From Bacteroidota bacterium (GTDB taxonomy: Bacteria > Bacteroidota > Bacteroidia > Flavobacteriales > Flavobacteriaceae), in contig QMOV01000003.1 in NCBI GenBank assembly GCA_003650305.1, positions 1 to 64,000 of the forward strand: DNA of 64,000 nucleotides, in the 5' to 3' direction. Position numbers and translations under genes: made by a program. Under the pieces are notes generated by a model, which saw nothing but the letters and a program-made list of their open reading frames with translations, searched no databases and was not told where the DNA came from. Below are positions 20,802 to 22,097 of the stretch, one piece after another. Numbering within the stretch: position 1 is the stretch's first letter; each line of letters begins with the position of its first letter.

Positions 20802-20945
20802 TTAAGCTTTTCCTAATATACGAAACATACCTGTCCCACATGTTGGGCATTTGCCTTTCATTGCTTTTCTACCATTTTTCATAACTACTTCTGCTCCATT
20901 TTCAATTTCTCTTTTTGATTTACATTTTACGCAATATCCTTCCAT
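20802..20945 (-). CDS. DUF5679-like small zinc-ribbon protein
   Basis: MEGYCVKCKSKREIENGAEVVMKNGRKAMKGKCPTCGTGMFRILGKA; two CxxC pairs; start is internal to the ORF-track call. Confidence 0.8.
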   Translation of the reverse strand: MEGYCVKCKSKREIENGAEVVMKNGRKAMKGKCPTCGTGMFRILGKA

Positions 20946-21247
20946 AATTTTAAAGATTTTGTTTTTTATTAAACTGTTTATCTTCAAATGTAAGGCTTCT
21001 ACTATGCAATTGCAAATAAAAATTGCCTTTGAAGACAACTTTTAAGCACAAAAGCTAAAAAATAGTGCTTACAAAAAGATTATACTTTAAAGATAAAATC
21101 AAAGACTTTTAGCTATATCTCTTTATTCATAAGGCTTTCAAGTAATATAAGTGATTCGTCTCTTAAAATTATTGTGCTTAAAATTTTATACTTAAATTGT
21201 TAATAACATCCTTAATTATGTGTATTAACTCGTAATTCTGCATTTGT

Positions 21248-21580: not shown

Positions 21581-21591
21581 TCTCTTTATTG

Positions 21592-21665
21592 CTCCTCCTC
21601 TAAGACTCGAACTTAGGACCCTCTGATTAACAGTCAGATGCTCTAACCAACTGAGCTAAGGAGGA
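21592..21665 (-). tRNA. tRNA-Asn(GTT)
   Basis: Reverse strand TCCTCCTTAGCTCAGTTGGTTAGAGCATCTGACTGTTAATCAGA...CTAAG-TTCGAGT-CTTAG-AGGAGGA-G; anticodon GTT. Confidence 0.93.
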
Positions 21666-21673
21666 GTATGAAT

Positions 21674-21961
21674 TTAATATCTTTGTTTAAGTCTAACAAT
21701 GATTTTGGGATAATCCTTTAAGTCATTGATATACTTTTTACTTTTCATACTCTTAATGTGAGTTTCTATTTTTCTGGCTTGGACTCTTTCTTTGCAAACA
21801 ATTTTCAAAAACAATGTCCAATCATTTACTTTTGAAGTAAAAGCATTTTTATAGAAACCTGAATTGTGTTCTTTTATTCTTTCTTCAATATCAATAGATT
21901 CTCCAATATAAAATTGATCTAGTGTTTCAGAAAAAAGTATATAAACATAATTCTTAATCAT
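21674..21961 (-). CDS. Solitary GIY-YIG nuclease family protein
   Basis: MIKNYVYILFSETLDQFYIGESIDIEERIKEHNSG...RKIETHIKSMKSKKYINDL; 95 aa, GIY-YIG domain only. Confidence 0.9.
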   Translation of the reverse strand: MIKNYVYILFSETLDQFYIGESIDIEERIKEHNSGFYKNAFTSKVNDWTLFLKIVCKERVQARKIETHIKSMKSKKYINDLKDYPKIIVRLKQRY

Positions 21962-21984
21962 TTTTTAAAGAACATACTCGCTTT

Positions 21985-22028
21985 TGCTCTAACCTCCCGA
22001 TAGCTATCGGGATGAGCTAAGGAGGAGT
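21985..22028 (-). repeat. Partial duplicate of tRNA-Asn 5' end interrupted by an 18-bp palindrome
   Basis: tgctctaacc + tcccgatagctatcggga + tgagctaaggaggagt; tRNA at 21639-21667 has tgctctaacc + aac + tgagctaaggaggagt. Confidence 0.85.
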
Positions 22029-22097
22029 GTATTTTTCGCTTTAGCGAGCGCAAATATATATCATTTTTTAGCCACTACAAATATATTCTTTAAAATA

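Follow-up and report, generated by a model that had tools for sequence, protein, structure and literature searches.

A GIY-YIG gene between an intact tRNA-Asn and a hairpin-marked tRNA fragment: a candidate mobile cassette in Bacteroidota

Organisation of the tRNA-Asn locus

The window (the whole 64,000-nt stretch of DNA that was analysed) carries on its minus strand a compact unit in which a displaced 5' fragment of tRNA-Asn, interrupted by a palindrome, is followed by a short ORF for a GIY-YIG protein and, after a spacer of 8 nt, by an intact tRNA-Asn (Table 1). This unit is preceded by a site-2-protease/rseP-like gene with M50 and PDZ domains. The original prediction had described repeats of 16 + 10 identical bases from the tRNA-Asn 5' end, a stand-alone GIY-YIG ORF of 95 aa and a complete tRNA-Asn(GTT) just after it. 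These were confirmed, with the repeats being exact copies, the ORF matching the Pfam GIY-YIG domain (PF01541, 1.9e-12) and the tRNA being called by both ARAGORN and Rfam. The stranded 5' copy had been described as merely broken; the displaced copy is real, but its D-loop holds a defined 18-bp palindrome which had been overlooked, and hairpin inserts of this kind are typical for its homologues. The tRNA 5' end is restored by the right-hand end of the cassette, in agreement with the suggestion that the element supplied a replacement 5' segment.

Table 1. Features of the tRNA-Asn unit of the window and its surroundings
Feature	Position	Strand	Basis or remark
Putative tRNA-unit promoter TTTG-N19-TATATTTG, before the displaced fragment	22051..22081	-	direct reading
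ACTCCTCCTTAGCTCA, tRNA-Asn nt 1-14 plus AC, exact 5'-end copy	22028-22013	-	direct reading
Displaced tRNA-Asn 5' fragment, nt 1-14	22013..22026	-	exact match to intact tRNA-Asn
TCCCGATAGCTATCGGGA, perfect 18-bp palindrome replacing D-loop nt 15-17 (GTT)	21995..22012	-	direct reading
GGTTAGAGCA, displaced tRNA-Asn nt 18-27, exact copy	21985..21994	-	direct reading
GTTCTTTAA, boxA-like, in ORF leader	21965..21973	-	recurs in Asn 5'-type units
GIY-YIG ORF, 95 aa	21674..21961	-	ORF call and Pfam; conserved Y7, Y18, G20, R28, H32, E66
Whole cassette, 361 bp (fragment, palindrome, ORF, spacer)	21666..22026	-	length equals the tandem unit of G294
Intact tRNA-Asn(GTT), 5' part regenerated by cassette	21591..21665	-	ARAGORN; Rfam 70.7 bits
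Small DUF5679 protein, downstream of tRNA-Asn	20802-21038		PF18930, 3.4e-16

The GIY-YIG ORF is the sole gene of the unit, in which no integrase, intron or transposase was found; the absence of an integrase and of an intron had been noted beforehand. It lies outside any intron or intein, next to its putative tRNA target. No intron family was matched in the window at the Rfam gathering thresholds, and the tRNA copy beside the insert is intact. Searches of plasmid and phage collections found no relatives of the protein. A group I intron, an integrase element and plasmid or phage cargo were rejected as explanations, having no support in the window or in the collection searches.

The putative promoter has what we take to be the Bacteroidetes −33/−7 type consensus, and its sequence also precedes tRNA-Asn at the empty site of G089, a genome of the same genus. 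In units of this layout (the 5'-type, described below) the ORF is placed after the tRNA promoter and before the tRNA, and the two genes are probably transcribed together. The boxA-like motif may have a role in antitermination.

Residues Y7, Y18, R28 and E66 are invariant across 33 family members. An AlphaFold2 model of the protein (pLDDT 96) was obtained, and the nearest solved structures by profile and fold were UPF0213 and Slx1 proteins (including 1zg2 and 1ywl), ahead of I-TevI and UvrC. From its sequence and model the protein is assigned to the GIY-YIG superfamily as a predicted nuclease. Slx1 acts on branched DNA, and an Slx1-like fold would fit, without proving, a hairpin or tRNA-shaped substrate. 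Comparison of the ORF with that of G294, also of the same genus, gave a dN of 0.096 and a dS of 0.98 (dN/dS about 0.1), indicating that the ORF is under purifying selection.

A family of tRNA-linked units

The window cassette is one case of a phylum-wide family. A protein search matched 156 of 301 family genomes, and a profile of 33 members found matches in 189 of 297 sampled Bacteroidota genomes, representing 102 of 141 genera. At 172 of 220 homologous loci across Bacteroidota, chosen largely by similarity to the window query and many of them from draft genomes or MAGs, an intact tRNA gene lies less than 120 bp from the ORF, and on the same strand in all 172 cases. With some 50 tRNAs per 3.5-Mb genome, a random position would, by our own rough estimate, have a chance below 1% of lying so close. 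Of the remaining 48 loci, several of which lie at the end of a contig or inside an array, 37 have a tRNA or a fragment derived from one within 300 bp. The tRNA targets include Asn, Met, Val, Phe, Asp, Arg, Pro, Ala, Thr, Gly, Leu, Ser and Lys. No published tRNA-linked GIY-YIG cassette in Bacteroidota was found in the open-licence literature. It should also be noted that another GIY-YIG gene of the window genome (L297, C40:1500-3200) follows the tmRNA gene on the same strand, at a distance of about 260 nt.

Two layouts were observed. The 5'-type has the order tRNA 5' fragment with hairpin, ORF, intact tRNA, while the 3'-type has the order intact tRNA, terminator, ORF, tRNA 3' fragment with hairpin, terminator copy. 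The use of the tRNA 5' end, which had been singled out beforehand, therefore holds for the window, but the mirror-image 3'-type is at least as common in the family. A piece of the same tRNA was found on the far side of the ORF in 156 of 174 adjacent copies, and this duplication beside tRNA genes is what had been expected of homologues of a mobile cassette. In 125 of the 174 the fragment is split by a hairpin-forming insert, a split being scored automatically as two collinear pieces around an insert with an inverted repeat (stem of at least 5 bp). Controls gave 5 fragments and 7 splits with the reversed tRNA, 24 and 2 with its complement, and 28 and 26 with another isotype; sequence further away gave 10 and 4 of 164.

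The position of the hairpin differs between cassette types. It replaces the D-loop in Asn 5'-type units (1-14|18-27), the anticodon loop in the Met 3'-type (25-35|41-75), the anticodon arm in Val, Arg-tct, Ala and Pro units and the variable loop in the Asn 3'-type, and stands in place of the T loop in Phe units and of the T arm in Pro-tgg, where the tRNA-Pro fragment retains a cloverleaf fold. Hairpin letters also vary between types, with ends that are often TCCCG...CGGGA. Across a dozen genomes the palindrome of the Asn 5'-type units is constant except at its centre while the spacer and the protein (about 50-80% identical) diverge, which argues that the hairpin is maintained. At two loci (L074 and L092) ARAGORN called a "tRNA-Stop" and a "tRNA-SeC" which resemble the hairpin-substituted pseudo-tRNAs of the cassettes.

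Target isotypes cluster on the protein tree. Across 148 proteins, in a tree built from few columns with many open forks and with near-copies adding to the clustering, the target label required 41 changes against 114 when shuffled, and none of 200 shuffles was as low. The Gly and Leu 3'-types form single groups, with Pro, Phe and the Asn 5'-type needing two to three changes. Vertical inheritance at orthologous tRNA loci could explain part of this pattern.

This isotype specificity, together with a maintained fragment, hairpins placed exactly at tRNA loops and arms and the cloverleaf of the marked tRNA-Pro fragment, would also suit a protein that acts on tRNA or pre-tRNA, the hairpin-marked fragment serving as a decoy or for leader control in a regulatory or toxin-antidote pair at the tRNA locus instead of in DNA homing. 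Such a role is considered very unlikely: the characterised GIY-YIG enzymes compared here cut DNA, many of the fragments, including that of the window with its 27 nt, are not long enough to mimic a tRNA, and the arrays and empty sites described below resemble mobility.

Occupied sites, empty sites and scattered palindromes

To the relatives of the window genome the original prediction had looked for an empty site, and G089 provides a clean one. The end of its rseP is 91% identical to that of the window over the last 603 bp, and the shared upstream sequence leads straight into a single intact tRNA-Asn. The search for this site retrieved 15 other Flavobacteriaceae genera, in which the tRNA-Asn site is also empty. 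In G294 two tandem 361-bp units and an older, decayed hairpin fragment lie at tRNA-Asn. The second cassette of the window genome lies at tRNA-Ala on contig C71 and has a D-loop hairpin unlike that of the first; this cassette is absent in G089 and present in G294. G089 may have lost its cassettes instead of never having gained them. A tandem pair of intact tRNA-Asn genes was rejected as the ancestral state, since a single tRNA-Asn is found in near relatives; the two intact copies of Gillisia lutea (L024/L240) are accompanied by a 3'-type cassette.

At both the Asn and the Ala loci the letters of the displaced fragment match the local tRNA, and the tRNA-Asn variants TCCTCAGT, TCCTCTTT and TCCTTCTT are each mirrored in their local fragment. 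This indicates that the resident tRNA is the source of the fragment, or that the fragment is kept identical to it. A T-stem variant of tRNA-Asn is common to the window and G294 and absent in G089 (loci compared with the window, L249 and L251), whereas the window terminator resembles that of G089. From these letters, co-conversion of tRNA-Asn together with the cassette is possible.

Arrays of ORF and tRNA fragment are common in the family, with tandem units reaching seven copies in G159 (spacing 378-381 bp) and five consecutive units in each of G124 and G583. Stubs made of a tRNA 5' fragment with the same D-loop palindrome and no ORF were also detected, lying in the window genome directly before an intact tRNA-His (L004/L283) and two tRNA-Leu (L015, L290), and before tRNA-Trp in two other genera (L278, L282).

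These loci could be read as a static host arrangement, in which the tRNA 5' end was duplicated in tandem long ago around a resident nuclease gene, the outer copy decayed and took up a palindrome, arrays arose by unequal crossing over and empty sites are losses. The window and G294 are both occupied, their ORFs (83% nt identity) have diverged about as much as rseP (77%), as under vertical descent, and the same rseP site is occupied in several genera. The reading is nevertheless judged unlikely, for the same plan recurs independently across many isotypes and at either end of the tRNA, the nearest congener is empty at two loci and 15 other genera are empty at tRNA-Asn, and the palindrome is maintained, not decayed.

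The palindrome also occurs away from the cassettes. Its 16-bp core CCCGATAGCTATCGGG, with an expectation of 0.00 in shuffled windows, is present 27 times in the window genome (reversed control, 0) and was found in 46 of 151 family genomes, in up to 53 copies. Comparison with G089 and G585 identified it as a polymorphic insertion within the genus. It sits in the loop of a terminator, in the loop of another hairpin and in coding DNA, where it seems to keep the reading frame, and relatives lack the insert (L289/L303; L008/L300; L010/L305). A further copy lies in the RNase P RNA (RF00010) of the window genome (L291:419-771, C70), and is degenerate in G089 (L298) and absent in G585 (L299). Being polymorphic on its own at other sites, the palindrome has spread at least partly independently of the cassette. 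It may be moved by the nuclease, or may reach tRNA fragments by a route of its own and then be retained there. An origin of the palindrome from the GIY-YIG nuclease alone was found to be unsupported, as G089 has 53 copies without an Asn cassette.

It is conceivable that the palindromes come first, with the GIY-YIG protein mobilising them through recognition of DNA hairpins, so that tRNA cassettes would be autonomous and scattered palindromes non-autonomous copies. The hairpin inserts of the tRNA fragments, the polymorphic insertions in loops and in RNase P RNA, and the Slx1-like fold agree with this, as do outer stems of at least 5 bp around 12 of the 27 copies, a count made without a shuffled control. 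However, in G089, with its many palindromes, the search with the window protein gave only a weak GIY-YIG match, and palindrome letters differ between cassette types, making this order of events distinctly improbable. A broader form, in which one structure-recognising GIY-YIG nuclease and DNA hairpins make up phylum-wide minimal mobile elements, is regarded as doubtful. Here the nuclease would attack the loops of tRNA-shaped DNA, the regenerated tRNA would be re-invaded into arrays, and the copies of the palindrome dispersed over terminators, coding genes and RNase P RNA would be non-autonomous products.

Proposed mechanism and comparison with known systems

The explanation preferred here, and thought probable, is that of a free-standing, selfish, tRNA-specific cassette of homing type that is copied into a tRNA arm during break repair and restores the tRNA. 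The original mobile-cassette model is supported, mobility being suggested by occupied and empty sites, arrays and target clustering. The nuclease would break the cognate tRNA gene in an arm or loop, and a cassette-bearing copy would serve as repair template, with the tRNA sequences that flank the break (nt 1-14 on one side, nt 18 onwards on the other) providing the priming homology. Repair would copy in the palindrome, the ORF and the tRNA 5' end, and in doing so rebuild the tRNA and displace the old 5' end. Since the rebuilt tRNA would again be a target, arrays could arise by repeated rounds or unequal exchange, and deletions would leave hairpin-marked stubs without an ORF. Most likely the palindrome is a mark of the former cut site that protects the displaced copy from cleavage, or else it is the end that the protein recognises.

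If this is correct, the cassettes would be among the smallest autonomous mobile elements, leaving an essential tRNA gene working and re-invadable, and would explain the abundant small GIY-YIG genes of Bacteroidota. Dozens of natural nuclease/tRNA pairs would make specificity directly testable. For annotation, hairpin-substituted pseudo-tRNAs are a trap, as they may be called as odd tRNAs.

The window protein is, like UPF0213/Slx1-type GIY-YIG proteins, a single small domain. We know of no UPF0213/Slx1-type protein that is a tRNA-linked mobile gene, and relative to these it is the tRNA cassette context that is new. Integrase elements and genomic islands at tRNA genes likewise duplicate part of the tRNA and leave one intact copy; unlike them, the window cassette has no integrase, consists of one 95-aa gene and carries a hairpin inside the displaced copy, and its family uses both tRNA ends. 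REP/RAYT and the Rickettsia RPE are also short scattered palindromes, including in-frame ones in genes (PMC3733652). The 18-bp palindrome of the window repeatedly occurs together with tRNA fragments and a GIY-YIG gene, whereas REP sequences go with a Y1 tyrosine transposase.

The cassette resembles the free-standing homing endonucleases in part only, since in the occupied allele an intact tRNA persists beside it, where homing would leave no cleavable target. Unlike in ordinary homing, the rebuilt tRNA should remain a target, and self-cutting must therefore be tolerated or limited; context-dependent protection is possible. The closest precedent and nearest demonstrated process is that of phage SegB, a GIY-YIG enzyme which cuts tRNA genes and amplifies tRNA and segB through microhomology (PMC13096335). 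As with SegB and the free-standing GIY-YIG homing endonucleases of T-even phages, a lone GIY-YIG gene lies by tRNA genes, and the tandem amplification of tRNA and nuclease gene proceeds for SegB via homology at the tRNA 5' end (PMC13096335). SegB is phage-borne, and the passages on it that were consulted (PMC13096335) describe neither a hairpin-marked displaced tRNA fragment nor a family with isotype-specific clades at both tRNA ends, as found for the Bacteroidota cassettes. The tRNA-linked GIY-YIG biology of SegB would, if the proposed mechanism is correct, extend to bacterial chromosomes.
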